In this document: one piece after another, positions 34,803-54,586 of the stretch
How positions within the stretch are numbered: position 1 is the first letter of the stretch
How the letters are laid out: the number at the start of each line of letters is the position of its first letter
Source: Herpetosiphonaceae bacterium
GTDB lineage: Bacteria; Chloroflexota; Chloroflexia; Chloroflexales; Herpetosiphonaceae
Reading direction: 5' to 3'
Length of the DNA: 64,000 bases
Assembly (NCBI GenBank): GCA_013538855.1
Contig: JABXJS010000081.1
Location: 1 to 64,000, forward strand
The notes under the pieces: generated by a model
The model's database searches: none
What the model saw: the letters and a program-made list of their open reading frames with translations, nothing else
Told to the model about the DNA's origin: nothing
Position numbers and translations under genes: made by a program

Positions 34803-34831
34803 TTGACACTCACAAGTGTGCGTGGTATGGT
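34803..34831 (+). promoter_or_regulatory. promoter of the polysaccharide operon, with palindrome over the -35
   Basis: A consensus TTGACA (34803-34808) and TATGGT (34826-34831, with an extended TG) are 17 bases apart. A palindrome ACACT-CACA-AGTGT (34806-34819) overlaps the -35 and could be an operator. This is the best promoter ahead of the fifteen-gene run. Confidence 0.8.
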
Positions 34832-34885
34832 TAGCCCACTTCACCCATATCCTCGGAACAGGTTTGCTGCTCACAAGGAGTAGGT

Positions 34886-35533
34886 ATGCGCCTAAAACGA
34901 TCAACAGCCGTTGGACTGCTCGCAATCCTGTTAGGGATCAACATGGTTGGCTTTGGATGGAGCGGCTCTTGGGGAGTTGCCTATGGCCAATCGGCAGGTC
35001 CAACCCCCACACTGCCCACAAATATTTCGCCGATTAGTGCAGAAAAGTCGGTTAACCCCAGCAACGGCGAGCCAGGCGACAGCCTGACGTTCTCGATTGA
35101 TATTCGCAACAACGAAACCAGCGCCCAGACGAATGTCACCCTCAGTGATCGAATACCTGACTTTCTTGAGATCATCTCAGTCAACACGACCAAAGGCACG
35201 GCCTCGTTTAGTGGGCAGAATGTGTCAGTAAACATCGGCACCCTCGAGCCAGGCGAAGTGGTAACCGTAACAATCGTTGTGCGTATTCGCCAGTCGGCCA
35301 GCGATGGCGACACGGGGATTAACGTCGCCGAGGTGTCTTCAACGGAAGGCGGCTCGACTGTAACGACCCCGACGAATCCGGTCGCGATCAGTGTCAACCA
35401 ACCACCGCCAGCGCAGCTGCCGCCCACAGGCGCAAGCAGCCGCCCGGTATGGCTTGGATGGCTTGGCCTAGCGCTGTGCGCAGTCGGTCTATTCAGCGTG
35501 CTACGTCAGCGCCAGCAGCAACACGAGGGCTAG
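34886..35533 (+). CDS. DUF11-type surface protein with LPPTG sorting signal
   Basis: A 215-residue exported protein, first in the polysaccharide operon. A signal peptide (about residues 1-34, ending near AYG) is followed by a Thr/Pro linker. One DUF11-like beta-sandwich covers about 50-165 (NPSNGEPGDSLTFSIDIRN, then the VTLSDRIPDFLE turn). The C-terminus is a cell-wall sorting signal: LPPTG at 178-182, a hydrophobic helix (about 188-206) and the tail RQRQQQHEG. Sortases cut this motif and attach the protein to the envelope. No sortase gene is in the window. DUF11 domains are often found in surface fibres. AAGGAG precedes the ATG by four bases. The next gene starts one base after its stop. Confidence 0.85.
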   Translation: MRLKRSTAVGLLAILLGINMVGFGWSGSWGVAYGQSAGPTPTLPTNISPISAEKSVNPSNGEPGDSLTFSIDIRNNETSAQTNVTLSDRIPDFLEIISVNTTKGTASFSGQNVSVNIGTLEPGEVVTVTIVVRIRQSASDGDTGINVAEVSSTEGGSTVTTPTNPVAISVNQPPPAQLPPTGASSRPVWLGWLGLALCAVGLFSVLRQRQQQHEG

Positions 35534-35534
35534 G

Positions 35535-37370
35535 GTGGAAATCCAACGCTATCTTTATGCACTCCGGCGCTGGTGGTGGCTCTTGCTCATGGGCATCAGT
35601 GTCACTGGCATCTCGGGCTATCTCTTTAGCGCCCAGCAGACACCAATGTACACCAGCACCGTGCGGGTGATCGTCGGCCAAACGCTGCAGAGCGTCAACC
35701 CAGACTATGGCAGCCTCGCCGCCAGCGAGCGGCTTGTGGCCACGTATGCGCAGCTCGTGCAGAGTCGCTCGATTAGTCAGGAAGTGGCCAAGGCGCTAGG
35801 CCGCGCTGACCTGGGGGCAACCACGGTTCAAGCGCAGCCAGTGCCAGACACCGAGTTTTTGGATATTGTGGTAGAGGCCACCGACCCGCAGCTGGCGGCA
35901 GACATCGCCAACGAGTACGCCCACCAGCTGATTCAAGAGAGTCCCACCGGCCCACAGAGCGCCGAGGCCCGCATTCTAGCCGAGGTCGATGCACAAATCA
36001 CCGACCTCAAGAATCAGATCAGCGCCCGCGATGCGGAGATCAAGTCGCTGCAGGAGCAGATCAAAAATCTCGGCACCGATACGGCCGAGGCCCAGCCGCT
36101 GATTGCGCAGCTGCAAGTGACGCAGCAGCTCCAGAGCGATGATCGTCAAACGCTGAGCACGCTGTACAACACAGTGCTTGGCAATCGCTCAAATACGGTC
36201 AGCGTCGTCGAGCCAGCGATTATGCAGCCAACCCCGATCGCACCACACCCGCTGCGCGCAGGCATCCTCAGCGGCATCGCTGGGCTGCTGATTGCGCTTG
36301 GGTTTGTGGTTGGCCTTGAGTACATCGACGACTCGATCAAGTCGCCTGATGAGGTTGTCGACCTGATCGAGGCACCCCTGCTAGCCGCAGTCGTGAAGCA
36401 GTCCAAAGTTGTGCGCGCGCCTGAGCGGCTGGTCACCAAGCTCGATCCACGCTCGGCAGGCGCAGAGGCATTCCGCACCCTGCGCACGAACTTGCAGTTT
36501 TCACGAATTGACTCCAAAACACGCAGCCTGCTCATCACCAGCAGCCAGCCCGAAGAGGGCAAGAGCACGGTGGCCTCTAACTTGGCCTGGGTGCTAGCGC
36601 AGGCTGGTCAGCGCGTCATCCTGATCGACGCTGATCTGCGCAAGCCAATGCTGCACAAGATTTTCGAACTGAACAACGAGTTCGGCCTCACGAATTTGCT
36701 GACCAACACCGAGGACAGTGAAATCGCCGAGCAGGCCATCCACACACTAACGCCCAATCTGCGCGTGGTGCCAAGCGGCCCGCAGCCACCCAACCCCTCG
36801 GAGCTGCTTAGCTCACGGCGGATGGAGATGCTGATCTGGCTGTTTCAGCAGGAGTATGACTGGGTCATTTTTGACACACCGCCGGTGCTCACCGTCACCG
36901 ATCCGCTGGCGCTCGCGCCACGCACCGATGGCGTGCTGCTGGTTGCCGCTGGCAAGGTGACTAGCCGTGATGCGCTGCGCAAGAGCTATCAGGCGCTCAA
37001 GACCGTGGGCGCGACGCTGATCGGCAGCGTCGTCAACAAGCTCGATGCGCGCGCAGAAGGCTACTACAGCTACTACACCTACTACTACGATCAACAGCAC
37101 CAAGAGCGTGAAGAGCAGCCACGGCGCTGGTGGACGCTCTGGAGCCGTCGCGGCGACGCACTAGCGAATGGCCACGCGAACGGCCACACGAATGGCCACA
37201 CGAATGGCCACGCGAATGGCCACAGCAACGGCTATAGCAACGGCAACGGCAATGGCCACGTGCAGACGGCGGAGGCAGAGGTCGAGCCGCCGCTGAACGA
37301 TGAAGCAGCAGACGCAGAAACAGAGACAGCCGCTCCAACACCCGACAACCATGATCAAACGGCGCTCTAG
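35535..37370 (+). CDS. Wzz-type chain-length determinant fused to BY-kinase
   Basis: A 611-residue inner-membrane protein that controls polysaccharide assembly. The Wzz domain comprises a first helix (about residues 14-32), an external coiled-coil part (to about 235) and a second helix (about 240-260). The cytosolic tyrosine-kinase domain has Walker A, PEEGKST, with Lys343 and Ser344, then Walker A' ILIDADLRKP and Walker B VIFDTPP. A Tyr cluster at about 510-520 is the usual autophosphorylation tail. After it comes an Asn-Gly-His repeat tail (about 544-576), which is not usual for the family. The start is GTG, two bases after the previous stop. Kinase cycling of the Tyr cluster is known to tune chain length and export. 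Confidence 0.95.
   Translation: MEIQRYLYALRRWWWLLLMGISVTGISGYLFSAQQTPMYTSTVRVIVGQTLQSVNPDYGSLAASERLVATYAQLVQSRSISQEVAKALGRADLGATTVQAQPVPDTEFLDIVVEATDPQLAADIANEYAHQLIQESPTGPQSAEARILAEVDAQITDLKNQISARDAEIKSLQEQIKNLGTDTAEAQPLIAQLQVTQQLQSDDRQTLSTLYNTVLGNRSNTVSVVEPAIMQPTPIAPHPLRAGILSGIAGLLIALGFVVGLEYIDDSIKSPDEVVDLIEAPLLAAVVKQSKVVRAPERLVTKLDPRSAGAEAFRTLRTNLQFSRIDSKTRSLLITSSQPEEGKSTVASNLAWVLAQAGQRVILIDADLRKPMLHKIFELNNEFGLTNLLTNTEDSEIAEQAIHTLTPNLRVVPSGPQPPNPSELLSSRRMEMLIWLFQQEYDWVIFDTPPVLTVTDPLALAPRTDGVLLVAAGKVTSRDALRKSYQALKTVGATLIGSVVNKLDARAEGYYSYYTYYYDQQHQEREEQPRRWWTLWSRRGDALANGHANGHTNGHTNGHANGHSNGYSNGNGNGHVQTAEAEVEPPLNDEAADAETETAAPTPDNHDQTAL
37164..37260 (+). repeat. 12-bp tandem repeat encoding (A/T/S)-N-G-(H/Y)
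   Basis: About eight units of the type GCGAATGGCCAC lie inside the kinase gene, encoding the Asn-Gly-His tail. A change in unit number would keep the frame. Confidence 0.85.
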
Positions 37371-40233
37371 CTCTAAACAATCACACAAACGAGAGCGGCG
37401 TCATAAGCGCCGCTTCTTTATTATCTGCGGCTTGCTTGTGCTCGGCTGGTGTGGCTGGATCGGCGTCAGCAGCTGGCAGGCGCTGCGCCACGGCCGTGCC
37501 GCCCAAGCAGCGCTGCAGAGCCAGCCACTGCGGCCGCAAGCGCTGGAAACTGCCTGTGCCCAGCTCGGCGCAGCCGGCGGCAACCTGCGCACGCTGCGCA
37601 CACTCACGCTGCCAATCACGCCGCTGCTGCGCCACAGCAGCTGGGTGCCAAAGCTCGGCCCGCTGCTCAGCAGCACACCGGCACTGCTCGATAGCGGCAG
37701 CGCTGGAGCCGATCTGCTGGACTATACATGTGCAGCCCTCGCCCCTGTTTGGCCAGCTCTGGAAGCCCCAGCCGAGCAGCGCCTGGCCGCGATCCTGCGC
37801 GCGCTCCAGCCGCAGCCCCCAGATTGGAACAGACTACAACAGCTCACCACACAGCTCGCGCAGGCCTGGGCAGGTATGCCGCCGTCCGCGCTTGAGCGCT
37901 GGCCCTTCGCCAGCTACCCACAGCTCCAGCAGCTTGCGCCTACGCTGCGCGACAGTCAGCAGATGCTCCAGCTGGCCCAGCCACTCTGGCCAGCGCTGCC
38001 AACGCTGCTAGGGCTAGAGCGGCCGGTGCGCTGGCTGGTGGTGGCCCAAAACCCAGGCGAGCTGCGGCCAACCGGCGGCTTCATCGGCAGCCTTGCGCTC
38101 ATCACACTCGACCAGGGTCAGCTTACCGCGAGCGCGTACTACAACTCATCGCTGCTTGGTGCAGCGGCACCGGCAGGATCGGCCATGCCAGCGCCCTACA
38201 ACGATTACCTACGCGCATCGATCTGGACCCTGCGCGATGCAAACTGGTGGCCAGACTGGCCGCGCTCAGCGCGGATCATCGAGACGTTCTGGGAGCTCAA
38301 CGAGCAGCCAGCGGTCGATGGCGTGATCGCGGTTAATTTGTACGCGCTTGAGGCGCTGCTGCCAACGCTCGGCAGCATCGAGGTGCCCAACTACGGCACC
38401 GTGAGTGCAGCAGCAGGGCTAGAAACGATCTACAGCCTCTACGAGGGCCAGGACCAGCTAACCAGCAATAAAGATTTTCTCGGCGCGCTGTTTCAAGCAA
38501 CACTGCAGCGCCTGCTCACCGCCAGCCCGCAGCAGCTGCCAAGCATCGCGGCCGGGCTGTACAGCGCGCTCGATTCGCGCCAGATCAGCCTGTGGCTGCA
38601 CGATGACGCAGCGCAGCAGGCGATCACCGCAGCGCAGTGGGACGGCAGCCAGCCAGCACTGCCGGCAGATCGGCTCCAGGTTATCGACGCCGATCTCAGC
38701 TATAGCGACGTGCAGCCGTTCATCGACGAGCGCATGGCGCTGACCGTGCGCTTGAACCAGCAGGGCCAGCCAATCAGCAGCACGCTGATCATCACCTACA
38801 CCAACCACTACGATGACTGGAACGCCGCCCAGACCCAGCACCAAGTCTTTGGCTACTGCTACAACGTTGCCACCCAGCTGCAGGAGCGCATACCAGGCTG
38901 CTATGGTAACTATGTGCGCATCTATCTGCCGCCGCAGGCCGCTGTCAGCAGCGTCCATGGCAACGACGGGCCGCTGACAGTGGAGCGTAGCGCGCAGTTC
39001 AGCAGTGTCGGCATGTATCTGCGGCTGCTGCCAGGTGCCACACGCCAGCTGCGCATCGACTATACGCCGCAGCTCAGCAGTGCAGCAGGCGACTACCGGC
39101 TGGATGTGCTCAAGCAGGCGGGCACCTTCGCGCGCCCGCTCGCGCTGACGCTGATCGACTCCACGGGGCAGACACTTGCAGCTGATATCGACCTCTGGCG
39201 TGATCGCACCTTGAGCGTGAGCGCCACGACAGGTGGGCTACAGTGGACGCAGCCGCTGCCGCCGCTGCATCCGGCGGCCCAGGCGCAGCTAACACGCGCG
39301 CGCAGCTGGGAGCAGGGCTGGCAGCTCTGGCCAGCGAACCAGGCGGCGGCGCTGCGCCAGTGGCAGCAGACAGGCACGCTGGAGCAGAGCCTGGATCAAG
39401 TAACGGCGCTGCGCTGGCAGGGTGAGCTTGAGCAAGCGGCACAGCTGCTGGCGGCCTTGGAGCGTGAAATGCCCACCAGCGCGCGCGCGGCCTTTCTGCG
39501 CGGCCAGCTGGCCGAGGAGCAGGGCAGCATGGCTGAGGCCATCAGCGCCTATCAAACTGCGCTCGAGCGTGATCCACAGGCCGATGTGGCGCGGCTGGCG
39601 CTGGCGCTGCTGCAAAGCCATAGCGGCCAGACCGCCGCCGCGATCGCCACTCTCCAGCAGATGCAGGAGCCAAAGATCACCCTGCGGCGACGGGCCTTTG
39701 ATGCGCGTCTCGCTGGCGATGTTGCCGCCGCAGATCAGCTGCAAGCCCTCATTTTAGCGCTGGACCCGGCTGATCAGATGGCCTGGGAGGAGCGCTACTG
39801 GCTGGCGCGCTTCAGCAGCGACCAGCCGCGCTGGGAGCATGTGCTCGCCATCGCACAAGCGGCCAGCGCCCAAGCGCCGACAAGTGCCGTATGGAGCAGC
39901 CGCCGCGCCGAAGCGCAGCAGGCGCTAGGCAACACAGCGGCAGCGCTGGCTGACTGGCAGCAGACCACCAGCCTCAGCCCGACCAATGCGCTCGCCTGGT
40001 ACAATCAGGGCCTCATTCAGCGCAAGCTCAACGATATCAGTGCAGCGACCTACAGCATCGAGCAAGCCGTTAAGGTCAGCGCGACACCAGACATAAACTT
40101 CTTGGTCGTTCTGGCCGACCTGTATGTTGAACAAGAGCGCACTGCTGAAGCGCGCCATCTCTATGCCCAAGCGCTCCAGCTACAGCCAGAGCGCGATGAC
40201 CTACAGCAAACCTTAGATCTTCTAGGAGAGTAG
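37351..40233 (+). CDS. DUF4012 protein with C-terminal TPR repeats
   Basis: A 960-residue protein. A very basic start (residues 1-21) precedes one membrane helix (about 22-42), so the rest should lie outside. A helical region leads to the DUF4012 domain, whose hallmark NPGELRPTGGFIG begins at Asn234. DUF4012 genes are typically found in envelope polysaccharide clusters. Their activity is not known, though a relation to LytR-CpsA-Psr-like ligases has been suggested by their context. From about residue 680 to 955 there are TPR-like helices (GELEQAAQLLAALE, GSMAEAISAYQTALE, AEARHLYAQALQLQPE). The ATG at 37351 overlaps the end of the kinase gene by 20 bases. Confidence 0.85.
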   Translation: MIKRRSSSKQSHKRERRHKRRFFIICGLLVLGWCGWIGVSSWQALRHGRAAQAALQSQPLRPQALETACAQLGAAGGNLRTLRTLTLPITPLLRHSSWVPKLGPLLSSTPALLDSGSAGADLLDYTCAALAPVWPALEAPAEQRLAAILRALQPQPPDWNRLQQLTTQLAQAWAGMPPSALERWPFASYPQLQQLAPTLRDSQQMLQLAQPLWPALPTLLGLERPVRWLVVAQNPGELRPTGGFIGSLALITLDQGQLTASAYYNSSLLGAAAPAGSAMPAPYNDYLRASIWTLRDANWWPDWPRSARIIETFWELNEQPAVDGVIAVNLYALEALLPTLGSIEVPNYGTVSAAAGLETIYSLYEGQDQLTSNKDFLGALFQATLQRLLTASPQQLPSIAAGLYSALDSRQISLWLHDDAAQQAITAAQWDGSQPALPADRLQVIDADLSYSDVQPFIDERMALTVRLNQQGQPISSTLIITYTNHYDDWNAAQTQHQVFGYCYNVATQLQERIPGCYGNYVRIYLPPQAAVSSVHGNDGPLTVERSAQFSSVGMYLRLLPGATRQLRIDYTPQLSSAAGDYRLDVLKQAGTFARPLALTLIDSTGQTLAADIDLWRDRTLSVSATTGGLQWTQPLPPLHPAAQAQLTRARSWEQGWQLWPANQAAALRQWQQTGTLEQSLDQVTALRWQGELEQAAQLLAALEREMPTSARAAFLRGQLAEEQGSMAEAISAYQTALERDPQADVARLALALLQSHSGQTAAAIATLQQMQEPKITLRRRAFDARLAGDVAAADQLQALILALDPADQMAWEERYWLARFSSDQPRWEHVLAIAQAASAQAPTSAVWSSRRAEAQQALGNTAAALADWQQTTSLSPTNALAWYNQGLIQRKLNDISAATYSIEQAVKVSATPDINFLVVLADLYVEQERTAEARHLYAQALQLQPERDDLQQTLDLLGE

Positions 40234-40235
40234 CA

Positions 40236-41183
40236 ATGGCAGACCGATACCTTGTAACCGGCGGCGGTGGCTTTATCGGATCACACCTTGTACGAGCGCT
40301 GCTGGAGCGTGGTGATGCCGTGCGCGTGCTTGATGACTTTTCAACCGGCAGGCGCACGAATCTGGCGGCCGTCGAGCACGACATCGATCTGCGTATCGGC
40401 TCCATTCTGGACCATGACACGCTCAGCAGCGCGATGAACGGCATCGACTACGTGCTGCATCAAGCTGCGCTGCCATCGGTGAGCCGCTCGGTCGCACGGC
40501 CCCGCGATAGCCATGAGGTCAACGCCACAGGCACGCTCAACGTACTGCTGGCCGCGCGCGACGCCGGGGTGCGCAAGGTCGTGTATGCTGCCTCATCATC
40601 GGTGTATGGCAACAGCCCGACGATGCCGCGCCACGAAGAGCTGCCGACACAGCCGCTATCGCCATACGCCAGCGCCAAGCTCGCTGGTGAGAACTACTGT
40701 CGTGCCATCCACCACGTGTACGGCTTGCCAACGGTGATGCTGCGCTACTTTAACATCTTTGGGCCAGGCCAAGATCCCGACTCGCCCTACTCGGCGGTAA
40801 TACCACGCTTTATCACAGCGCTGCTACGTGGCGAGCCACCGCAAATCAACGGCGACGGCACGCAGTCGCGCGACTTCACCTACGTGGCCAACGCCGTGCA
40901 TGCCAACCTGCTTGCCTGTGCCGCCGACGAGCGGGCCAACGGCAACGTGATGAACATCGCCTGCGGCGGCGCGTACAGTTTACTGGAGCTGATGGGCAAC
41001 TTATGTGAGATTTTAGACACGCAGATCGAGCCAGTCTTTGGGCCAGAGCGGCCTGGTGATGTGCGCCACTCGTGTGCCTCGATCGAGCGCGCCAAGGAGC
41101 TGATTGGCTACACACCGGCTGTCGCATTCCGGGCGGGCCTAGAGGCGACCGTCGCGAGCTTCCAGCTAGCCAGTGTACTATGA
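40236..41183 (+). CDS. NDP-sugar epimerase/dehydratase (GalE/WbpP-like SDR)
   Basis: A 315-residue extended short-chain dehydrogenase. The NAD site is VTGGGGFIGSHL (residues 7-18). Catalytic Tyr and Lys lie in YASAKLAGE, after the SSSVYG triad serine, and RYFNIFGPGQDP is typical of UDP-hexose 4-epimerases of the WbpP type. The enzyme probably makes UDP-galactose, UDP-GalNAc or a uronic acid from the gluco form. A specificity call would need the substrate-pocket residues to be aligned. AGGAGA precedes the ATG. It supplies a nucleotide sugar for the glycosyltransferases encoded downstream. Confidence 0.9.
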   Translation: MADRYLVTGGGGFIGSHLVRALLERGDAVRVLDDFSTGRRTNLAAVEHDIDLRIGSILDHDTLSSAMNGIDYVLHQAALPSVSRSVARPRDSHEVNATGTLNVLLAARDAGVRKVVYAASSSVYGNSPTMPRHEELPTQPLSPYASAKLAGENYCRAIHHVYGLPTVMLRYFNIFGPGQDPDSPYSAVIPRFITALLRGEPPQINGDGTQSRDFTYVANAVHANLLACAADERANGNVMNIACGGAYSLLELMGNLCEILDTQIEPVFGPERPGDVRHSCASIERAKELIGYTPAVAFRAGLEATVASFQLASVL

Positions 41184-42628
41184 GTCGCCCACGGCTGTTG
41201 CGCGACACTGCGCTCTATGCGATCAGCAGCATGGCCACCAAACTAATCGGTGCGCTGCTGCTGCCGCTGATCACGCGCTTAATCTCGCCAGCGCAGTATG
41301 GCCTGATCGATCTGCTGGCGCTGTGCGGGCAGTTTGGCCTGGAGATGATCGTGCTGGGCACGGACTATGTGATCGCGCTGTACTACCACGATGAGCAGAC
41401 CGACCAGGGGCAGCTGATCGGCACGATTATGCTGGGGCGGGTGATCTTCGGCGCGCTGGTTTTGAGCATCGGGGTGATCTTCTCGCAGCAGCTGGCGCGC
41501 TGGCTGGCTACGCCCACAGCGCAGCGCGGCCTGCTGATTGCGCTGATTGGGTTGCCGTTCAGCGCCACCGTCAATAGCTGGCTGATGATTCTGCGCCAAG
41601 CAGGCCGCGCGCTGCTGCTAGTGAGCATCACGGTGAGCAAAGTGCTTGCGACGGCGCTGCTCACGGTAGGACTGCTGCTGTGGCTGCCTGACCCGCTCAG
41701 CGCCTACTTTCTGGCGATTCTGCTCGTTGACGGCAGCGTGGCCGTGGGGCTAAGCCTGGCCTTCCGCAGCTGGATCAGGTGGCCAGACCGGGCGCTGACC
41801 TGGCTGATCTTGCGCAAAGGCATCGCGTTCTTCCCGCGCTCGGTTTATTTTATCCTGATGACGCTGATCGCACGCCAGATCCTGCTGCACTGGGGATCGC
41901 TCGCGGAGGTGGGGCTGTATGGCGCGGCCAACAAAATCAGCTACGGCATCTGGATCGGCATCACCGCCTTCTCGCAGGCGTGGCTGGCCTACAGCATGGC
42001 GATCGCCAAGCAGCCAGATGCGCCGCAGATCTATGCGCGCTACCTTGAGCGCTATGTCGTCAGTATCGGCACGCTGGTCGTCGGCCTCGCACTGCTGGCC
42101 CCCGAGGCGCTGGCGCTGCTGACCACGAGCGCCTATCTGCCTGCCGCGCCGCTGGTGGGCTGGCAGGCGCTGAGTCTGATGGCGGTCGGCGCACTGGTTA
42201 TTGTCACCACGGGCCTTAATCTCAACAAAGAGACGCTGATCGTTGGTCGTGTCACCGTCGTGATGGGCGTGGTCAACGTTGGCCTAGCGATCCTGCTCGT
42301 GCCGTGGCTCGGCGGGCTAGGCGTGGCGTTGGCAGCGGCGCTGGATCAAGGGCTGGTGGTGATTGTGCTGTATCATATTGCCCAGCGCTACCATCGGCTG
42401 CCATTTCGCGGCTGGCGCATCAGCCTCTGGCTGGGGCAGATCGTGCTCGCTGTTGGCGTAGCGAGCTGGCTCCCAAGCAATGTTTCCTGGCGGCTGCTGG
42501 GCCTCAAGCTGCTGATTCTAAGCGCCTATGGCGTGGGATTGTGGATCAGCGGTGGCCTGAACGCGCTGCAGCTGCGCGCGCAGCTACAGCGCATCTGGCA
42601 GCGGCGTATTCCTGAAACTGGTGTTTAG
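41180..42628 (+). CDS. polysaccharide flippase (Wzx-type)
   Basis: A 482-residue protein with about fourteen hydrophobic helices. The start RDTALYAISSMATKLIGALLLPLITR, with RLISPAQYG soon after, is typical of the MATE/MVF flippase superfamily. Wzx proteins turn lipid-linked oligosaccharide units from the inner to the outer face of the membrane. Its ATG overlaps the stop of the epimerase gene (ATGA). It is the only flippase seen in the operon, which fits a Wzx/Wzy route rather than an ABC exporter. Confidence 0.9.
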   Translation: MSRPRLLRDTALYAISSMATKLIGALLLPLITRLISPAQYGLIDLLALCGQFGLEMIVLGTDYVIALYYHDEQTDQGQLIGTIMLGRVIFGALVLSIGVIFSQQLARWLATPTAQRGLLIALIGLPFSATVNSWLMILRQAGRALLLVSITVSKVLATALLTVGLLLWLPDPLSAYFLAILLVDGSVAVGLSLAFRSWIRWPDRALTWLILRKGIAFFPRSVYFILMTLIARQILLHWGSLAEVGLYGAANKISYGIWIGITAFSQAWLAYSMAIAKQPDAPQIYARYLERYVVSIGTLVVGLALLAPEALALLTTSAYLPAAPLVGWQALSLMAVGALVIVTTGLNLNKETLIVGRVTVVMGVVNVGLAILLVPWLGGLGVALAAALDQGLVVIVLYHIAQRYHRLPFRGWRISLWLGQIVLAVGVASWLPSNVSWRLLGLKLLILSAYGVGLWISGGLNALQLRAQLQRIWQRRIPETGV

Positions 42629-42659
42629 ACATACTCGATACATAGAGAAAGGTACCTGT

Positions 42660-43598
42660 GTGAAAGCGAGCCTTCTTCCACTGCTACGCGACCCCGAGAG
42701 CCACGCGCCGCTGAGCCTTGAGATCAGCACGCAAGATGGCGACGAGATTCTCGAAGGCGTGCTGCGTGCGCCGAGCGGCAAGACCTACCGGATCAGCAAC
42801 GGCATCGGCCGTTTCGTGCCTGATGACGAGTATGTGGGCAACTTCAGCTTTGAGTGGACGCAGCATCAGACCACCCAGCTCGACAGCGCGCATGCGATGC
42901 GCGAGTCCGAAGAGCGCTTCGCTGATTCGCTGCCCTACCCGCTGACCGAGCTAGCCGGCAAGCTGGTGCTCGACGTTGGCTGCGGGATGGGCCGCTTTGC
43001 CGAAATTGTGCTGAAGTACGGCGGCAGCGTGGTTGGCATCGACCTGAGCTTCGCGGTAGACGCAGCGTGGAAAAACATGGGCCGCCATCCACAGGCCAAC
43101 TTTTTGCAGGCGAATGTCTACAGTCTGCCGTTTGCGCCGGAGTCTTTCGATCTGATCTACAGCCTCGGCGTGCTGCACCACACGCCGGACCCGCGCGCCG
43201 CCTTTGATCAGCTGCCGCAGCTGCTGAAGCCTGGGGGCACGCTGATGACCACATTCTACGCCGCCTACAACAAAGCCTATGTTGCCGCGAGCGAGTTCTG
43301 GCGCTGGGTGCTGCGCCCAGTGCCACAGCCCTGGCTCTACAAGCTGGCGCACATCAGCATTCCGCTGTACTACATCTGGCGGCTGCCGAAGATTGGCAAG
43401 GTCTTCAGCACGCTCTTTCCGATCAGCCTGCATCCGCGGCCAGAGTGGCGCGTGCTGGACACCTTTGACTGGTACTCACCGCGCTACCAGTTCTACTACA
43501 CACATCCAGAGGTGTTCCGCTGGTACCAGGAGCACAAGCTCCAGAATATTGTCGTCAAGGGACCAGGAATTTCGCTGGCTGGGGTGCGCGGGCAATGA
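42660..43598 (+). CDS. SAM-dependent methyltransferase with Trm112-like N-terminus
   Basis: A 312-residue class I methyltransferase. Motif I is LDVGCGMGRFAE (about residue 102), with VVGIDLS as motif II and LIYSLGVLHHTPDP as motif IV. The first ~50 residues resemble the Trm112-type domain often fused to such enzymes (LLPLLRDPESHAPL ... YRISNGIGRFVP), but without its zinc cysteines. The C-terminal third has several aromatic-rich helices, perhaps for lipid-linked substrates. The GTG at 42660 with GAAAGG upstream is preferred; another GTG at 42621 overlaps the previous stop. In this setting it probably methylates a sugar. Confidence 0.82.
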   Translation: MKASLLPLLRDPESHAPLSLEISTQDGDEILEGVLRAPSGKTYRISNGIGRFVPDDEYVGNFSFEWTQHQTTQLDSAHAMRESEERFADSLPYPLTELAGKLVLDVGCGMGRFAEIVLKYGGSVVGIDLSFAVDAAWKNMGRHPQANFLQANVYSLPFAPESFDLIYSLGVLHHTPDPRAAFDQLPQLLKPGGTLMTTFYAAYNKAYVAASEFWRWVLRPVPQPWLYKLAHISIPLYYIWRLPKIGKVFSTLFPISLHPRPEWRVLDTFDWYSPRYQFYYTHPEVFRWYQEHKLQNIVVKGPGISLAGVRGQ

Positions 43599-44770: not shown

Positions 44771-45971
44771 GCCGCTAGGCGTCAATCAGATCATCATCTA
44801 CCTGCTGGTGCTAAGCCAAACCGGGCTACGCTACACGCTGGTGACATTTGAAAAAAGCGCCGATCTCAACGATCCCGCCCGCGTCGCGGCCATGCGGCAG
44901 CTGCTGGCGGCGCATCAAATTCAGTGGCTGCCGCTACGCTACTATCGCGGATCGCTGTGGGCCGTGCTGCGCAACATCGCGCAGGGCGTACGTATGATGC
45001 TGCGGCTCGCATGGCGCGAGCGCTTTGCCGCCATCCATGTGCGCAGCTACCTGCCGCTGCTGTTTGGGCTGCCGCTCCAGCTGCTCCAGCGCACCAGGTT
45101 AATCTTTGATCTGCGCGGCTTTTGGGCCGATGAGCGCGTCGACTGGCAGCGCTGCCGCCGCAACAGCCTCCAGTACCGCATCATCAAAGGGCTGGAGTGG
45201 CTTGGTCTCGCGCGGGCCAACGTGGCCGTTGTGCTAAGCAGCAAAGCGCGCAGCCACCTGCAGAAGATCGCGATTGTCCAAAAGCGGCAGCTGCCCATCG
45301 CGGTCGTGCCCTGCTTTGTCGATGCGACGCGCTTCCGGCCCAAGCCAGCCGAGCGCGCACAGCGGCGGCGGGCGTATGGCTGGGAAGACAACGTCGTGCT
45401 GGTCCACTCTGGCTCGCTCGGCGGCCTGCATCTGGTCGACGAGATCGTCGCGTGCTTCCAAGCTGGCCAGCGACTAGAGCCACGGCTGCGGCTGCTGGTG
45501 CTGACGCCAAGCGACCCACAGCGCCTGATCGACAAACTGCAGGCGAGCGCCATCGACCCAAGCAGCTGGCGCATTGAGCATGTTACCCCGGAGCAAATGC
45601 CCGACGTGCTGGTCTGCGCCGATCTAGGACTCGCGCTGATCAAGCCCACCTTCTCCAAGATCGCCTCATGGCCAACCAAGCTTGGCGAGTATCTGGCGAC
45701 CGGCATCCCTGTGCTGACGACGCCGAACATTGGCGATACGGCCGAATTTCTGCAGCAGCACGAGGTCGGGGTGGTGCTGGCAGATCTTACGGCGGCAGGC
45801 TGTGCCGCTGGCATGCAGGCGCTGCTGGAGCTGACGCGCAGGCGCGCTGATCTGGTGCAGCACTGCCGTGAGACTGCGCTGCGGCATCTTGATGTCAACA
45901 GCGCGGGCCAAGCACAGTACCTGACCATCTACAACCATCTTCAGCTTGCGACCAAGGAGACCAGCTCATGA
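44703..45971 (+). CDS. glycosyltransferase, GT4-like
   Basis: A 422-residue GT-B-like enzyme. The start VLYLSYNGALEPLGVNQI resembles GT4 acceptor loops. The donor half has VHSGSLGGLHLVDE and SWPTKLGEYLATGIPVLTT, with the conserved Lys and Glu. The first glutamate of the usual E-x7-E motif is less clear than in its neighbours. The ATG at 44703 would overlap the previous gene by 68 bases; a later GTG at 44739 is an alternative. AGGTG precedes the first. The operon position suggests a transfer step in the repeat-unit pathway. Confidence 0.83.
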   Translation: MSKTDKTTAQPHVLYLSYNGALEPLGVNQIIIYLLVLSQTGLRYTLVTFEKSADLNDPARVAAMRQLLAAHQIQWLPLRYYRGSLWAVLRNIAQGVRMMLRLAWRERFAAIHVRSYLPLLFGLPLQLLQRTRLIFDLRGFWADERVDWQRCRRNSLQYRIIKGLEWLGLARANVAVVLSSKARSHLQKIAIVQKRQLPIAVVPCFVDATRFRPKPAERAQRRRAYGWEDNVVLVHSGSLGGLHLVDEIVACFQAGQRLEPRLRLLVLTPSDPQRLIDKLQASAIDPSSWRIEHVTPEQMPDVLVCADLGLALIKPTFSKIASWPTKLGEYLATGIPVLTTPNIGDTAEFLQQHEVGVVLADLTAAGCAAGMQALLELTRRRADLVQHCRETALRHLDVNSAGQAQYLTIYNHLQLATKETSS

Positions 45972-47077
45972 ACGTGCTGCTGCTCTTACCCTACGCGCTT
46001 GATCGGGCACCAAGCCAGCGGCTGCGTGTAGAGCGCTGGCTGCCCTACCTGCATCAGCACGGCTGGGCGACCGAAACGCTCGTTTTTCCAACCCCGCTGC
46101 TAACCAACGTTATGTATCGACAGCGCCACTACGGGGCCAAGATCATCGGCACGCTGCACTCGCTGATCAGCTACAGACAGCGCTTCCGCCGTCTCGATCT
46201 TGCCAGCTTCGATGTAGCGCTGGTGCACCGTGAGGCGGTGCTGGTTGGCCCCGCCCTGATCGAGCGCGAGCTTGTGCGCCAGCGGCTGCCGTTTGTCTTT
46301 GAGTTTGATGATCCTATCTTCCTGCCAAGCCAAAGCCGTAACAGCCCTTGGCTCACCGTCGGACGCTGGTACAGTAAGATCAGCGAGCTGTGTCGCACCA
46401 GCGCGCATGTGGTGGTGGCCAACAGCTACCTCGAGCGCTATGCGCGCATGCTCAACCAGCATGTTTCGATCATCCCCATGGGCATGGAGCCAGGCGTAAT
46501 ACCGCCCAAGCAGCACAGCCAGCACAGCCCGCTGCTGATCGGCTGGACTGGCAGCTTCAGCACCGCACCGTTTATCGCCACCATTCAGCCTGTGCTGGCC
46601 ACGATTCAGCACGAGTTTAACTGTCGCATCCAGCTGATTGGCGCACCACAGGACTACCGCCTTGATGGCGTAGACCTAGAGATCAAACCATGGACGCCAG
46701 CGAGCGAGAAGACGTTGATCCGCCAGTTCGATATCGGCATTAACCCGTTGCCGATCACCGACTGGACCAAGGGCAAGGGCACGGGCAAAACCTTACAGTA
46801 CATGAACGCGGGCGTGCCCTGCATCGCCACCCCCACCGGAGCCAACACCGATATCATTGTAGATGAGCAAAACGGCCTCTTGGCGCACACGCTCGCCGAC
46901 TGGGAGGCGGCGCTGCGCCGTCTGCTCACCGATGTGAGCGAGCGCCGACGGCTTGGGGCGGCGGGCCTCGCCACGGTTGAGCAGCGCTTCAACATTCGCA
47001 CCCATGCCCAGCAGCTTAGCCAGATACTGAGCGAGGTAGCGCAGGAGCACCCCCGATGTGTGGAATCTGTGGCCTAG
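45968..47077 (+). CDS. glycosyltransferase, GT4-like
   Basis: A 369-residue GT-B-like enzyme. The start has LLPYALDRAPSQRLRVERW, unlike the G-G-A loop of its neighbours. The donor half reads GWTGSF, then KGTGKTLQYMNAGVPCIATPTGAN, which holds the conserved Lys and acidic/polar donor site. The protein length and fold agree with GT4, but the first catalytic Glu of the usual motif is absent, so activity may follow another subfamily's rules. It overlaps the previous gene by ATGA and the following asparagine synthetase gene by 22 bases. Confidence 0.8.
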   Translation: MNVLLLLPYALDRAPSQRLRVERWLPYLHQHGWATETLVFPTPLLTNVMYRQRHYGAKIIGTLHSLISYRQRFRRLDLASFDVALVHREAVLVGPALIERELVRQRLPFVFEFDDPIFLPSQSRNSPWLTVGRWYSKISELCRTSAHVVVANSYLERYARMLNQHVSIIPMGMEPGVIPPKQHSQHSPLLIGWTGSFSTAPFIATIQPVLATIQHEFNCRIQLIGAPQDYRLDGVDLEIKPWTPASEKTLIRQFDIGINPLPITDWTKGKGTGKTLQYMNAGVPCIATPTGANTDIIVDEQNGLLAHTLADWEAALRRLLTDVSERRRLGAAGLATVEQRFNIRTHAQQLSQILSEVAQEHPRCVESVA

Positions 47078-48930
47078 TTAGCGCCGATCCGCAGCACCAC
47101 GTGGCGATCGACGCCATCAATACAGCCATCGCCCATCGTGGGCCGGATGGCAGCGGCACCTGGCAGGGCGCGAACGCCAGCCTAGGCCATCGCCGACTGG
47201 CGATCATCGATCTTGTAACTGGTGATCAGCCGCTAGGCAGCCCCGATGGCACGCTGCAGCTCGTCTTCAATGGTGAGATCTACAACTTCCAGGCCCTGCG
47301 CGCCGAGCTGCGCGTGCTTGGCCACACATTTCGCACAACCTCAGACACCGAGGTGATTGTGCATGCCCTGCAGCAGTGGGGCGATCAAGCGCTCGCCCGC
47401 CTCGACGGCATGTTTGCCCTGGCGGCCTGGGATAGCCGTGAGCAGCGCCTGCTGCTGGCGCGTGATCGCCTGGGCAAGAAGCCGCTGTACTACGCGCCGC
47501 TGCCTGGCGGCGGCCTGAGCTTTGCCTCGGAGATCAAGGCGCTGCTCCAGCACCCCGCCGTTGAGCGCACACTTGCGCCTGACGCGCTCGGGCAGTTTCT
47601 CTGCTACGGCTACGTGCCGCCGCCTGCCACCTGGTTTCAGCAAATCAAGCAGCTGCAGCCTGGGCACGCGCTGGCCTGGCAGGCAGGTGCGGTACACCAG
47701 TGGCGCTGGTGGTCGGCCCATGCGAGCGCCCAAGCGCCACGCCTGGAGCTATCGAGCACAGCGGCAGCCCTAGAGCTGCGCCGCCGCATCCGGGCCGCAG
47801 TGGAGCGCCGGCTGATCAGCGACGTGCCGCTCGGCGCATTTCTCAGCGGCGGCATCGACTCGAGCGTTGTGGTAGCAGAGATGCAAGATCTGCTCGACCA
47901 GCCGGTCAAAACGTTTAGCATCGGCTTTCACGGTGGCGGTTGGTATGACGAGACCGCCTACGCCCGCGAGGTTGCGGCCCACCTAGGCACAGAGCACCAC
48001 GAGTTTCAGGTTGAGCCGGATGCGCACCAGCTGCTCGCCGTGCTGCTGCACCACTACGACGAGCCATTCGCCGACTCATCGGCGCTGCCGACGTATCTGC
48101 TCAGCGCCATGACCAAGCAGCACGTCAGCGTGGCCCTGGCTGGCGATGGCGGCGATGAGATCTTCGCAGGCTACGAGCGCTTTGGGGCCGCGCTGTGGGC
48201 CACGCGCTATCAGCGGCTGCCTGCGCCCATGCGCCGGGCCATCGAGCGCAGCGCCGCATGGCTGCCAGCGCACCAGGCATCAGCGCCGACAGCGCGGCTC
48301 CAGCGCGTGCTGCAGAAGCTCGCGCTGCCGCTTGAGGTCGGCTTTCCGCGCTGGCTAATGCTCTGGACGCCGGAGGAGATCGCCGACCTGACTGGGGCCG
48401 CGCCAGAGCCGACGGTGCGCTATCGTGCCCATACCGCAGGCATCGCCCACCCACTGGCGGCGACGATGACCTATAATCTGACCACCTATCTGCCCGATGA
48501 CCTGCTGGTCAAGGTTGACCGCATGAGCATGGCCCATGGCCTAGAGGTACGCGCACCACTGCTCGACACAGCGCTGGTCGAGTGGGCGCTGCGCCTGCCG
48601 CCGCAGCTCCAGTGGCGTGGGCGTCGCGGCAAGTGGCTGCTGCGCCAAGCCTACCGCGAGCGCTTGCCAGCCACGGTGCTAAGCCGACCAAAACATGGAT
48701 TTGGTGTACCATTGGATGCATGGTTTCGCGGCCCGCTGCGCGCATGGCTCAGTGATACACTGCTTGCTGCCAGCCCAGCCTACACACGCTGGCTTGATCG
48801 CAACACCATCGCCGCGCTCTGTGCAGATCACTGGAGCGCCCGCCGCAACGCTGGCCATCAGCTGTGGGCGCTGCTCGCCTTAGAGCTGTGGCTCCAGCAC
48901 ATCAACCAATCCTCCGAGGTGACGATATGA
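47056..48930 (+). CDS. asnB: glutamine-hydrolysing asparagine synthetase homologue (first copy)
   Basis: A 624-residue AsnB-type protein. Cys2 (MCGICG) is the nucleophile of the N-terminal glutaminase domain, which releases ammonia. The synthetase domain has the PP-loop SGGIDSS (264-270), which binds ATP, and LAGDGGDEIFAGYERF. All motifs are present. Some AsnB homologues make asparagine, but those inside capsule or O-antigen operons are often thought to amidate a sugar acid, and context favours that here. It overlaps the GT gene before it by 22 bases and the membrane protein after it by four. A second copy is encoded one gene later. Confidence 0.92.
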   Translation: MCGICGLVSADPQHHVAIDAINTAIAHRGPDGSGTWQGANASLGHRRLAIIDLVTGDQPLGSPDGTLQLVFNGEIYNFQALRAELRVLGHTFRTTSDTEVIVHALQQWGDQALARLDGMFALAAWDSREQRLLLARDRLGKKPLYYAPLPGGGLSFASEIKALLQHPAVERTLAPDALGQFLCYGYVPPPATWFQQIKQLQPGHALAWQAGAVHQWRWWSAHASAQAPRLELSSTAAALELRRRIRAAVERRLISDVPLGAFLSGGIDSSVVVAEMQDLLDQPVKTFSIGFHGGGWYDETAYAREVAAHLGTEHHEFQVEPDAHQLLAVLLHHYDEPFADSSALPTYLLSAMTKQHVSVALAGDGGDEIFAGYERFGAALWATRYQRLPAPMRRAIERSAAWLPAHQASAPTARLQRVLQKLALPLEVGFPRWLMLWTPEEIADLTGAAPEPTVRYRAHTAGIAHPLAATMTYNLTTYLPDDLLVKVDRMSMAHGLEVRAPLLDTALVEWALRLPPQLQWRGRRGKWLLRQAYRERLPATVLSRPKHGFGVPLDAWFRGPLRAWLSDTLLAASPAYTRWLDRNTIAALCADHWSARRNAGHQLWALLALELWLQHINQSSEVTI

Positions 48931-50291: not shown

Positions 50292-50294
50292 CAT

Positions 50295-52172
50295 ATGTGT
50301 GGTATTGCTGGGTTCATCTCCCAGTCTGCGGAATCATTGGCACCAACGGTCTTGGCGCGCCAGCTCCAGTGCATCGAGCATCGCGGCCCTGATGGACAAG
50401 GGCGCTTCGTTGAGGGCCGGGCCGCTCTCGGGATGCAGCGGCTGGCGATTATCGACCTAGCCACTGGCGAGCAGCCATTCTTTAGCCACGACGGTAGGCT
50501 TGTGCTGGTGTTCAACGGCGAGATCTATAACTATCGCACGCTGCGGCAGCAGCTTCAGGCGTGCGGCCAAGTTTTCATCAGCACCAGCGACACCGAGGTG
50601 ATTATGCGCGGCATCGAGGCCTGGGGCCTCGCCGAGTGCCTGCAGCGCCTCAATGGCATGTTCGCCTTTGCGCTATGGGATCGGCGCGAGCAGGTGCTCA
50701 CGCTGGCGCGTGATCGGCTGGGTATCAAGCCGCTCTATGTTTATCACGATCAGCAGCAGCTTGTCTTTGGCTCAGAGATCAAGAGCATTCTCCAGCACCC
50801 GCTGGTGCCGCGGCAGCTCGATCTGCGCGGGCTGGCGAATTTTCTCACCTGGGGCCATGCTGTAGCGCCGCAGACGATGTTCACCAACATTCACAAGCTG
50901 CTGCCAGGCCACACGCTGCACTACAGCGCACAGAGCGGAGCGGTTCACGCACAGACGTATTGGCAGCTCAGCGATCTCCAGCCAATCACTGATCTGACGC
51001 CGAGCGCCGCCCAGGCCGAGTGCTACGATCGGCTGCGCGAGGCCGTGCGGCTGCAGCTCGTCAGTGCTGTGCCGCTCGGCGCATTTCTCAGCGGCGGATT
51101 AGACTCGTCGATCATTGTTGGGCTGATGACACAGCTCGGCGCTGCGCCAGTGCAAACGTTTAGCGTGGGCTTCGATGCCTCCAACACGTTCAATGAGCTA
51201 GCTGACGCCCAGCAGGTGGCCGAGCACTTCGGCTGCACCCACCATGCCCTGCGCCTGCAGGCCAGTGATCTGCCAGCGCTGCTGGAGCGCCTGATCTGGC
51301 ACTACGATGAGCCGTTCGGCGACGCGGCCGCGATCCCGGTGCTGGCCCTCGCCGAGTTCGCCCGCCGCCATGTCACCGTCGTGCTCACCGGCGAGGGCAG
51401 CGACGAGCAGTGGGGCGGCTATCGCCGCTACCAGGCGCAGATCTACACCAACCTGCTGCGGCGGATGCCTGGGCGCTCAATGCTTGCAGCAGTGCTGCGC
51501 CAGCTCCCGCGCGCGCGCCGCATCAAGCAGATCGCCCGCGCGCTTGAGATCGCCGACCCGGCTCAGCGCTACGCCACATGGCTTACCGTGCTGCACGCTG
51601 ATCAGCGCCAGCGCCTGCTGCACACCGATGTGCTCAGCGCGCTCGGCGACTACGATCCAGCCGCGAGCTACCGCCAGATGTACCCGACAGATGCACGGCA
51701 CGCGATTACGCGCATGGGCGCAGCCGACTTGCAAACTTGGCTGCCAGACACATATCTTGAAAAGGTTGACAAGGGCACGATGGCCGCCAGCCTAGAGGCC
51801 CGTGTGCCGTTTCTTGATCATACGCTGGTGGAGTGGACCATGCGTCTGCCGCCGCAGTTCAAGCTGCGTGGGCGCACCACGAAGTGGCTGCTGCGCCAAG
51901 CATTTCAGGACATGCTGCCACAGCGCACACTGCAGAAGCCCAAACATGGCTTTGCCGTCCCAACTGACCCATGGTTCCGCGGCTCGCTCTACCCATGGGT
52001 CCGCCAAGTGCTGCTCGACCAGCGCACGATTCAGCGCGGCCTGTTTCAACCACAGGCGCTTGAAACTATTCTTACGGCGCATCAGACAGGCCGCGAAACC
52101 AACGATGCCTTGATCTGGCTGCTGCTCAACCTTGAGCTGTGGCAGCGCCGTTTTCTTGATGCGACACTGTGA
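50295..52172 (+). CDS. asnB: glutamine-hydrolysing asparagine synthetase homologue (second copy)
   Basis: A 625-residue paralogue of the gene at 47056 with the same domain order. Cys2 is the glutaminase nucleophile, SGGLDSS (266-272) is the PP-loop, and TGEGSDEQWGGYRRY follows. In the PP-loop and following segments it differs from the first copy (GEGSDEQWGGY against GDGGDEIFAGY), so the two probably amidate different acceptors. GAGGAT precedes the ATG. Two complete copies separated by one gene are unusual; the most likely reading is two amidation steps in the same polysaccharide. Confidence 0.92.
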   Translation: MCGIAGFISQSAESLAPTVLARQLQCIEHRGPDGQGRFVEGRAALGMQRLAIIDLATGEQPFFSHDGRLVLVFNGEIYNYRTLRQQLQACGQVFISTSDTEVIMRGIEAWGLAECLQRLNGMFAFALWDRREQVLTLARDRLGIKPLYVYHDQQQLVFGSEIKSILQHPLVPRQLDLRGLANFLTWGHAVAPQTMFTNIHKLLPGHTLHYSAQSGAVHAQTYWQLSDLQPITDLTPSAAQAECYDRLREAVRLQLVSAVPLGAFLSGGLDSSIIVGLMTQLGAAPVQTFSVGFDASNTFNELADAQQVAEHFGCTHHALRLQASDLPALLERLIWHYDEPFGDAAAIPVLALAEFARRHVTVVLTGEGSDEQWGGYRRYQAQIYTNLLRRMPGRSMLAAVLRQLPRARRIKQIARALEIADPAQRYATWLTVLHADQRQRLLHTDVLSALGDYDPAASYRQMYPTDARHAITRMGAADLQTWLPDTYLEKVDKGTMAASLEARVPFLDHTLVEWTMRLPPQFKLRGRTTKWLLRQAFQDMLPQRTLQKPKHGFAVPTDPWFRGSLYPWVRQVLLDQRTIQRGLFQPQALETILTAHQTGRETNDALIWLLLNLELWQRRFLDATL

Positions 52173-53320: not shown

Positions 53321-53333
53321 CAGGAGAAACACT

Positions 53334-53939
53334 ATGTCAACCAGCAAGCGGTTGTTTGATCTCGTCGTTGCCAGCGGATTAATCGTTGTGCTTAGCCCGC
53401 TGCTGCTGCTGATCGCGCTCGCCATTCGCCTGACGTCAGCCGGGCCGGTGCTCTACGTGCGTCAGCGGGTTGGCAGGGCAGGCCAGCCCTTCCCGATGTA
53501 CAAGTTTCGCACCATGGTTGCCGACGCCGAGCGCCGCGGGCTAGGAATTGAAACCGCCCGCCACGATGCGCGCATCACCGCTGTGGGCAAGCTGCTGCGC
53601 CGCTGGAGCCTCGACGAGCTGCCGCAGCTCTTCAATGTGCTGCAGGGCCATATGAGCCTGATCGGTCCGCGCCCAAGCCTGCCCGAGCAGGTGGCGCGCT
53701 ACACGCCAGCACAGCGCCTGCGCCTGCGCGTGCGGCCGGGCATCACCGGCTGGGCGCAAGTGAACGGGCGCAACGACCTCTCCTGGGAGCGGCGGATCGA
53801 GCTTGACTGCTGGTACATCGATCATTGGAGCTGGCGCATCGACTGGCTGATTCTGCGCCGCACGCTGCGTGCGGTGGTCGATCCAAGCGGCATCTATGGC
53901 AGCGATGGCGTCGTGCGCGATCTCGGATCGCAGGAGTAA
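53334..53939 (+). CDS. PglC/WcaJ-type initiating phosphoglycosyltransferase
   Basis: A 201-residue monotopic enzyme that moves a sugar phosphate from a UDP-sugar to undecaprenyl phosphate, starting each repeat unit. The start KRLFDLVVASGLIVVLSPLLLLIA is the re-entrant membrane helix. MYKFRTM, WSLDELPQLFNVL (the catalytic Asp-Glu) and GPRPSLPEQVARY are all present, and PGITGWAQVNGRN closes the core. The short length is the PglC form without the extra N-terminal helices of WbaP. It is followed by an acyltransferase of the PglD type, so the first sugar is likely an N-acetylated amino sugar. The sequence alone does not fix the donor. Confidence 0.93.
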   Translation: MSTSKRLFDLVVASGLIVVLSPLLLLIALAIRLTSAGPVLYVRQRVGRAGQPFPMYKFRTMVADAERRGLGIETARHDARITAVGKLLRRWSLDELPQLFNVLQGHMSLIGPRPSLPEQVARYTPAQRLRLRVRPGITGWAQVNGRNDLSWERRIELDCWYIDHWSWRIDWLILRRTLRAVVDPSGIYGSDGVVRDLGSQE

Positions 53940-53947
53940 GGCTCGCT

Positions 53948-54586
53948 ATGCGCCCAGTGGTTATCATCGGCACCGGCGGCCATGGCCGCGAGGTGGCCGA
54001 GATTGTGCAAGCGGCGGCGGCGGCCGGACGGGGTGGTCCGCTGATCGGCTGGCTCACCGATGATGTGCAGCAGCACGGGCAGCAGCTCAGTGGCTTGCCG
54101 ATCTTCGGCCCGCCAGCGTGGCTCAGCCAGCATCCAGAGGTAAGCGCGATCATTGCCATTGGGGCCAACCCTGTGCGCCAGCGCATCGCCGCACGGCTGC
54201 CAAGCGGCTGGCACAGCGCGACCGCGATCTCGCCCCACGCGCTGATCTCGCCGCAGGCCCAGGTCGCCGCAGGCACAATGGTGTTCCCCGGCGTGGTAAT
54301 CGGCCCCAACGTGCGCATCGGCGCACACAGCATCGTCAACGTCGGGGCCAGCATCAGCCACGACAGCCACGTTGGCGCATGGTGCAACCTCAACCCTGGC
54401 GCACGCCTCGCAGGCAACGTGCAGCTTGCAGAGGGGGTAAACATCGGCATGGGGGCGCTGGTCATCCAAGGCCGCCAGATTGGCGCATGGAGCATTGTCG
54501 GCGCAGGCAGCGTGGTCATCCGTGACTTGCCCGAGCGCATCACGGCGGTCGGCGTGCCAGCGCGCAGAATCAAAGCCCAACATTAG
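53948..54586 (+). CDS. PglD-type sugar O/N-acyltransferase
   Basis: A 212-residue enzyme. The N-terminal half is a small Rossmann-like domain (VIIGTGGHGREVAEIV). The C-terminal half is a left-handed beta helix of hexapeptide repeats (from about residue 95; for instance ISPQAQVAAGTMVFPGV, IGAHSIVNVGASI). The His in the ISHDSHVG segment is the expected catalytic base. PglD-like enzymes acetylate a 4-amino group of UDP-sugars with acetyl-CoA. The 4,6-dehydratase and aminotransferase that would make such a sugar are not in the window. It is the last gene of the operon. Confidence 0.9.
   Translation: MRPVVIIGTGGHGREVAEIVQAAAAAGRGGPLIGWLTDDVQQHGQQLSGLPIFGPPAWLSQHPEVSAIIAIGANPVRQRIAARLPSGWHSATAISPHALISPQAQVAAGTMVFPGVVIGPNVRIGAHSIVNVGASISHDSHVGAWCNLNPGARLAGNVQLAEGVNIGMGALVIQGRQIGAWSIVGAGSVVIRDLPERITAVGVPARRIKAQH

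Follow-up and report, generated by a model that had tools for sequence, protein, structure and literature searches.

Why would one polysaccharide operon carry two asparagine-synthetase-type amidotransferases, and would two such enzymes mean two amides? We followed this question in a 64,000-nucleotide stretch of DNA (the window), which comes from a Herpetosiphonaceae genome (6.3 Mb, 100% complete) of the same family as Herpetosiphon and of another genus. An earlier note, made from the letters alone, had proposed a methylated, doubly amidated uronic-acid polymer. The best explanation, which we consider moderately probable, would be one surface polysaccharide with amides installed by the two enzymes (AsnB1 and AsnB2). 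Other bacteria are known to form such amides, and nothing in the operon is categorically new.

Organization and gene content of the operon

An ORF check of the window placed 15 ORFs on the plus strand at 34886-54586, and the fifteen-gene cluster described earlier was thus confirmed, all of its junctions overlapping or lying within 13 bases. From gene 1 to gene 15 the gaps were 1, -20, 2, -4, -8, -4, -68, -4, -22, -4, 3, -4, 13 and 8 bases, so that the largest intergenic gap was 13 bases. The four ATGA overlaps noted before (41180, 43595, 45968 and 48927) were all exact, and a fifth junction of this kind was a GTGA at 52169. Starts were corrected for three genes: gene 3 (probably 37351), gene 8 (44703) and gene 15 (53948). 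A terminator candidate at the boundary of genes 2 and 3 was discarded because it lies inside the coding sequence of gene 3; with the gene 3 start at 37351, the terminator-like matches within the operon region fall in coding sequence. The features are:

34803..34831, +, sigma-70-type promoter-like site, TTGACA-17-TATGGT with extended -10 (hexamer scan and H. aurantiacus counterpart)
34886..35533, +, gene 1: signal peptide, DUF11, LPPTG sorting signal and TM; probable sortase-anchored surface protein (domain scans)
35535..37370, +, gene 2: Wzz chain-length domain fused to BY-type tyrosine kinase (TIGR01007, 190 bits, over cut-off)
37351..40233, +, gene 3: N-terminal TM, DUF4012, C-terminal TPR repeats (domain scans)
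40236..41183, +, gene 4: SDR epimerase nearest WbpP/WbgU/TviC, the GnaB-type UDP-GlcNAcA 4-epimerases (scores)
41180..42628, +, gene 5: Wzx-type flippase (PF01943; 47% orthologue in H. aurantiacus locus L047)
42621..43598, +, gene 6: class I methyltransferase with N-terminal Trm112-like stretch (domain scans)
43595..44770, +, gene 7: GT4 glycosyltransferase (domain scan)
44703..45971, +, gene 8: GT4-like glycosyltransferase (GT4b), opening the AsnB1 cassette (domain scans, orthology)
45968..47077, +, gene 9: GT4-like glycosyltransferase (GT4c), AsnB1 cassette (domain scan, orthology)
47056..48930, +, gene 10: AsnB1, class II glutamine amidotransferase, 624 aa, Cys2 nucleophile, SGGIDSS PP-loop
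48927..50291, +, gene 11: polytopic GT-C-type membrane glycosyltransferase or polymerase (candidate Wzy role)
50295..52172, +, gene 12: AsnB2, class II glutamine amidotransferase, 625 aa, Cys2 nucleophile, SGGLDSS PP-loop
52169..53320, +, gene 13: GT4 glycosyltransferase (GT4d), AsnB2 partner (domain scan, orthology)
53334..53939, +, gene 14: monotopic sugar-phosphate transferase, initiating step (PF02397)
53948..54586, +, gene 15: NeuD/PglD-type sugar acetyltransferase (TIGR03570, 197.9 bits, cut-off 160.8)

The prediction of a polysaccharide operon is supported. Domain scans matched the flippase, initiating transferase, four glycosyltransferases, epimerase, methyltransferase and Wzz-kinase that had been proposed, and both AsnB homologues are complete, being of full length with glutaminase and PP-loop motifs; two additions are the acetyltransferase of gene 15 and, in gene 1, an LPPTG sorting motif. 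Four sortases are encoded elsewhere in the genome, and gene 2 has orthologues of 61-67% identity in loci L047 and L055.

A strong single promoter had also been claimed. The promoter-like site at 34803, 55 bases upstream of gene 1, has a counterpart in H. aurantiacus (L047:6374), where TTGACA-18-TATGCT and the same CGTGGTATG block precede the gene-1 orthologue, which makes a promoter upstream of gene 1 likely at the sequence level. The hexamer scan alone was not above chance (3 hits versus 3.7 expected). The CGTGGTATG match between the window and H. aurantiacus was made by pattern scan, MAFFT having left the two blocks unaligned.

Predicted route of assembly

The proposed route would be Wzx-dependent and lead to one surface polysaccharide. 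Gene 14 would load the first sugar phosphate onto a lipid carrier and genes 7, 8, 9 and 13 would extend the chain, with gene 6 methylating and gene 15 acetylating; that the methyl group sits on the polymer is a guess. Gene 5 would then flip the unit, gene 11 would work on the outer face by adding sugar from a lipid donor or by polymerising, gene 2 would set chain length, and genes 1 and 3 would serve as surface or attachment factors.

An initiating transferase, Wzx and a chain-length kinase are the parts of the Wzx/Wzy pathway that were found. No strict Wzy was identified among the operon genes, the sole candidate being gene 11, of GT-C type. Its own PMT_2 match is weak and three of its homologues exceed the PMT_2 cut-off. 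Its low-confidence structural model (pLDDT 59) matched oligosaccharyltransferase, ArnT and ALG9 structures, all of GT-C fold, the first 16 matches all being oligosaccharyltransferases (E 0.008-0.36, none below 0.001). Because model confidence is low, GT-C type was assigned from the homologues' PMT_2 matches together with the fold matches. What had been called a likely polymerase is thus better described as a GT-C-type membrane protein; gene 11 may be a transferase or the polymerase.

Gene 3 is possibly a polymer-anchoring factor. DUF4012 genes, which have no known function, are present in a Bifidobacterium capsule cluster (PMC5412050). An LCP-fold (LytR-CpsA-Psr) enzyme was considered for DUF4012 and set aside: profile similarity was too weak (7% probability in hhalign, with E 0.005 in one comparison), and a fold predicted from the single sequence was of no use (mean pLDDT 38.7). 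In gene 3 (37351-40233), DUF4012 is joined to a TPR domain.

Motifs and family assignment of AsnB1 and AsnB2

Both AsnBs start with MCGI and retain Cys2, HRGPD, NGEIYN and SGG[IL]DSS. The earlier note had located their difference in divergent PP-loop flanks. These flanks proved to be conserved, VPLGAFLSGG[IL]DSS being common to both proteins and the PP-loop and flanks nearly identical; divergence lies instead on the acceptor side (DEPFADSSALPTY in one versus DEPFGDAAAIPVL in the other; GDGGDEIF versus GEGSDEQW) and around residues 380-470.

The top model for both was TIGR03108 (WbpS/XrtA amidotransferase; 606.1 and 586.7 bits), whose cut-off of 816.9 bits was reached by neither, and both passed the TIGR01536 asparagine-synthase cut-off of 267.1 (502.3 and 483.7 bits). 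Traits of the TIGR03108 type are present in both, namely intact N-terminal Cys glutaminase and PP-loop domains and a polysaccharide cluster setting. The arginine of the TTIRAST motif of E. coli AsnB binds the aspartyl substrate. This residue (Arg325) is not Arg in AsnB1 or AsnB2, where the aligned segments read DEPFADSSALP and DEPFGDAAAIP; the loss points away from asparagine synthetase in a suggestive way only, the comparison being with the E. coli type of AsnB. The nearest PDB match of both proteins was 7ylz, named a hydroxyamidotransferase.

WbpS (P. aeruginosa O6) and WbqG (E. coli O121) have been assigned to TIGR03108 (PMC7468200). WbqG is needed for uronamide formation (cited in PMC7468200), and without PGN_1234 P. 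gingivalis no longer forms a uronamide (PMC7468200). Like these three proteins, the AsnBs of the operon join a class II glutaminase to a PP-loop synthetase, and they share with them the best family match, the polysaccharide cluster and a WbpP-like epimerase alongside. Unlike them, they score under the family cut-off, occur as two copies per operon and have no adjacent WbpO-type dehydrogenase, and their host belongs to the Chloroflexota, described as without an LPS outer membrane (PMC3368417).

The top match to TIGR03108 and the loss of the Arg, along with the WbpP/TviC-type epimerase of the operon and the tRNA route to asparagine (both below), support the prediction that the AsnBs are sugar amidotransferases. 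AsnB1 and AsnB2 would use glutamine as the ammonia source and ATP to activate a carboxylate, so that the amide is made either on a sugar acid or on a carboxylate linked to a sugar.

Candidate sugar substrate

The likeliest AsnB substrate would be an N-acetylhexosaminuronic acid, produced jointly by the 4-epimerase of the operon and a dehydrogenase whose gene lies outside it. Gene 4 scored 245 and 238 bits against WbpP/WbgU, 228.6 against TviC and 102 against E. coli GalE; by these scores, not by a tree, it is nearer to WbpP/WbgU/TviC than to GalE. Clade-B enzymes of the WbpP/TviC kind are UDP-GlcNAcA epimerases (PMC3682973). No UDP-sugar dehydrogenase was found in the operon and no WbpO-type dehydrogenase adjoins gene 4; the nearest candidate is a UDP-HexNAc 6-dehydrogenase-like gene on contig C146 (76-79% conserved in five relatives), and a UDP-glucose-dehydrogenase-like gene is on contig C54. 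Since the genome holds both the gene-4 epimerase and a UDP-HexNAc dehydrogenase, a HexNAcA-to-uronamide route is, by sequence prediction, encoded there in dispersed genes. The idea that a uronate dehydrogenase is the usual neighbour of AsnB1 relatives was rejected, as a UDP-sugar dehydrogenase was within reach in 3 of the 80 loci that hold such relatives.

Alternatively, the AsnBs might amidate a non-uronic carboxylate (a sugar-bound amino acid or acyl group) or form some other C-N bond, as the hydroxyamidotransferase name of 7ylz and the mere three dehydrogenase-bearing loci would allow. The WbpP/TviC-type epimerase in the operon, and the HexNAc- and UDP-glucose-dehydrogenase-like genes in the genome, speak against this alternative, and we regard it as rather unlikely.

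Ancestry and partner genes of the AsnBs

Identity between AsnB1 and AsnB2 is 43.6%, while each is 62-63% identical to a separate Herpetosiphon orthologue, and in a FastTree phylogeny (deep branches weak) they fell in separate, fully supported pairs or clades. The orthologue identities and the tree rule out a recent tandem duplication; judged by sequence, the two are old paralogues that diverged before the genera split.

In H. aurantiacus DSM 785 the operon is split: orthologues of genes 1-3 and 5, of genes 8-11 and of genes 12-13 lie at separate chromosomal sites (loci L047, L049 and L050), not in one operon, with gene 4 elsewhere and the AsnB1 and AsnB2 orthologues ~445 kb apart. GT4b, GT4c, AsnB1 and gene 11 form a four-gene block in Herpetosiphon, and AsnB2 and GT4d are kept together in H. 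aurantiacus. GT4b-, GT4c- and gene-11-like genes also share a locus with an AsnB in two Omnitrophota loci, although the tree does not place these AsnBs as sisters to AsnB1. In three other Chloroflexota genomes the neighbours of a gene-11 homologue are a gene-9-like transferase and a gene-4-like epimerase (56-60% identity); in a fourth such a homologue stands beside an AsnB 47% identical to AsnB1. We take these arrangements to reflect a conserved block for adding sugar, with amidation as an optional extra. Counting against the best explanation, as far as its sequence goes, is another genome (76% complete), in which genes 1-3, 7, 11 and 13 form a single cluster that lacks AsnB. At L195, L196 and L198, from other Chloroflexota, the block of GT-C protein, gene-4-like epimerase and gene-9-like glycosyltransferase likewise stands without AsnB.

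Two AsnBs occurred in 6 of 60 other loci of more than 12 kb holding an AsnB1 relative, these being spread over several phyla, and where both members of a pair were in the tree they were not sisters. The psc1 cluster of Rubrivivax gelatinosus holds three WbpS-like asparagine synthases, one of them tied by mutation to a colony and aggregation phenotype (PMC3684757). Pairing of AsnBs is thus uncommon but already known. Like the operon, psc1 and the XrtA/PEP-CTERM clusters have several WbpS-like asparagine synthases among group 1 glycosyltransferases and Wzx; they also have Wzy genes, a role for which gene 11 is the candidate here. The operon differs in its LPXTG-type surface protein in place of PEP-CTERM, its DUF4012 gene and its far smaller size. 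Two Acidobacteriota loci (L126 and L137) carry the same divergent AsnB pair, which suggests that this pair was inherited or moved as a unit.

Number of amides

When wbpS is lost in H. pullorum, the glycan is truncated and elongation halts (PMC6025236). Thus amidation can gate the next transferase, an effect that the retention of AsnBs beside particular transferases fits. Each AsnB would prepare the acceptor or the donor used by the glycosyltransferases beside it, namely those of genes 8, 9 and 11 in the case of AsnB1 and that of gene 13 in the case of AsnB2, and two different positions would probably be amidated. Because the AsnBs are old, divergent and associated with different glycosyltransferase partners, two distinct acceptors are plausible on sequence grounds.

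Double amidation itself is not established, given the lack of an operon dehydrogenase, the ~445 kb between the H. aurantiacus AsnBs, and the Bordetella b-Cool locus. The latter resembles the operon in having AsnB and several glycosyltransferases, together with UDP-GlcNAcA and UDP-GalNAcA production and a uronamide product; it differs in that one putative AsnB gene serves two amides (two GalNAcAN residues), on an oligosaccharide (PMC12407052). The count of AsnBs does not give the count of amides. The same b-Cool case lends some weight to the view that AsnB1 and AsnB2 are redundant, acting on the same kind of residue to yield a single uronamide type, which we nevertheless find fairly unlikely: their split predates the genera, both copies have been kept, and their partner genes differ.

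Asparagine supply

AsnRS is present in the genome, which implies that free asparagine is used in one way or another; a genome search found no AsnA. GatB is also present, and a second AspRS scored over the cut-offs of non-discriminating aspartate-tRNA(Asn) ligase models. As these two allow tRNA-dependent synthesis, no AsnB would be needed for asparagine, though one of them may still make it. AsnRS, non-discriminating AspRS and GatB (L141:1492-2844 on the minus strand, L140 and L142), in the absence of AsnA, leave two possible Asn-tRNA routes.

It is distinctly unlikely that AsnB1, AsnB2 or both are plain asparagine synthetases lying in the operon by chance, or dual-purpose enzymes. In favour of this view, both pass the TIGR01536 cut-off, free asparagine needs a source where AsnRS occurs without AsnA, and the genome has its three full-length AsnBs all within polysaccharide loci. 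Against it, TIGR03108 is the better model, the TTIRAST Arg is gone, asparagine can be made on tRNA by way of non-discriminating AspRS and GatB, and each AsnB has been inherited with glycosyltransferases.

The third AsnB (630 aa; L054, G000:C268:1-20000) lies in a second polysaccharide cluster with glycosyltransferases, a Wzz-like gene and a sugar-phosphate transferase, and is conserved with its neighbours in Herpetosiphon (H. aurantiacus L048).

Wider implications

A broader proposal, which we put forward tentatively as possible rather than probable, is that all three old AsnB paralogues are glycan amidotransferases with distinct acceptors and none a free asparagine synthetase, asparagine being made only on tRNA. 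The GT4-GT4-AsnB-GT-C block, shared with some Omnitrophota, would then be a transferable module for installing an amidated sugar and elongating it, here in a bacterium that has no LPS outer membrane. If the preferred reading of an amidated surface polysaccharide is true, the surface polymer of these little-studied gliding filamentous Chloroflexota becomes predictable, and uronamides would cut its negative charge and alter hydration and adhesion. Moreover, every gene annotated as "asparagine synthase" in genomes of this kind may encode a sugar-modifying enzyme, and the AsnB pairs seen in several phyla offer a natural test of whether a pair means two amidation sites.

Elsewhere in the window, the minus strand at 25086-27068 encodes pentapeptide repeats fused to a PQQ/BamB-type beta-propeller.
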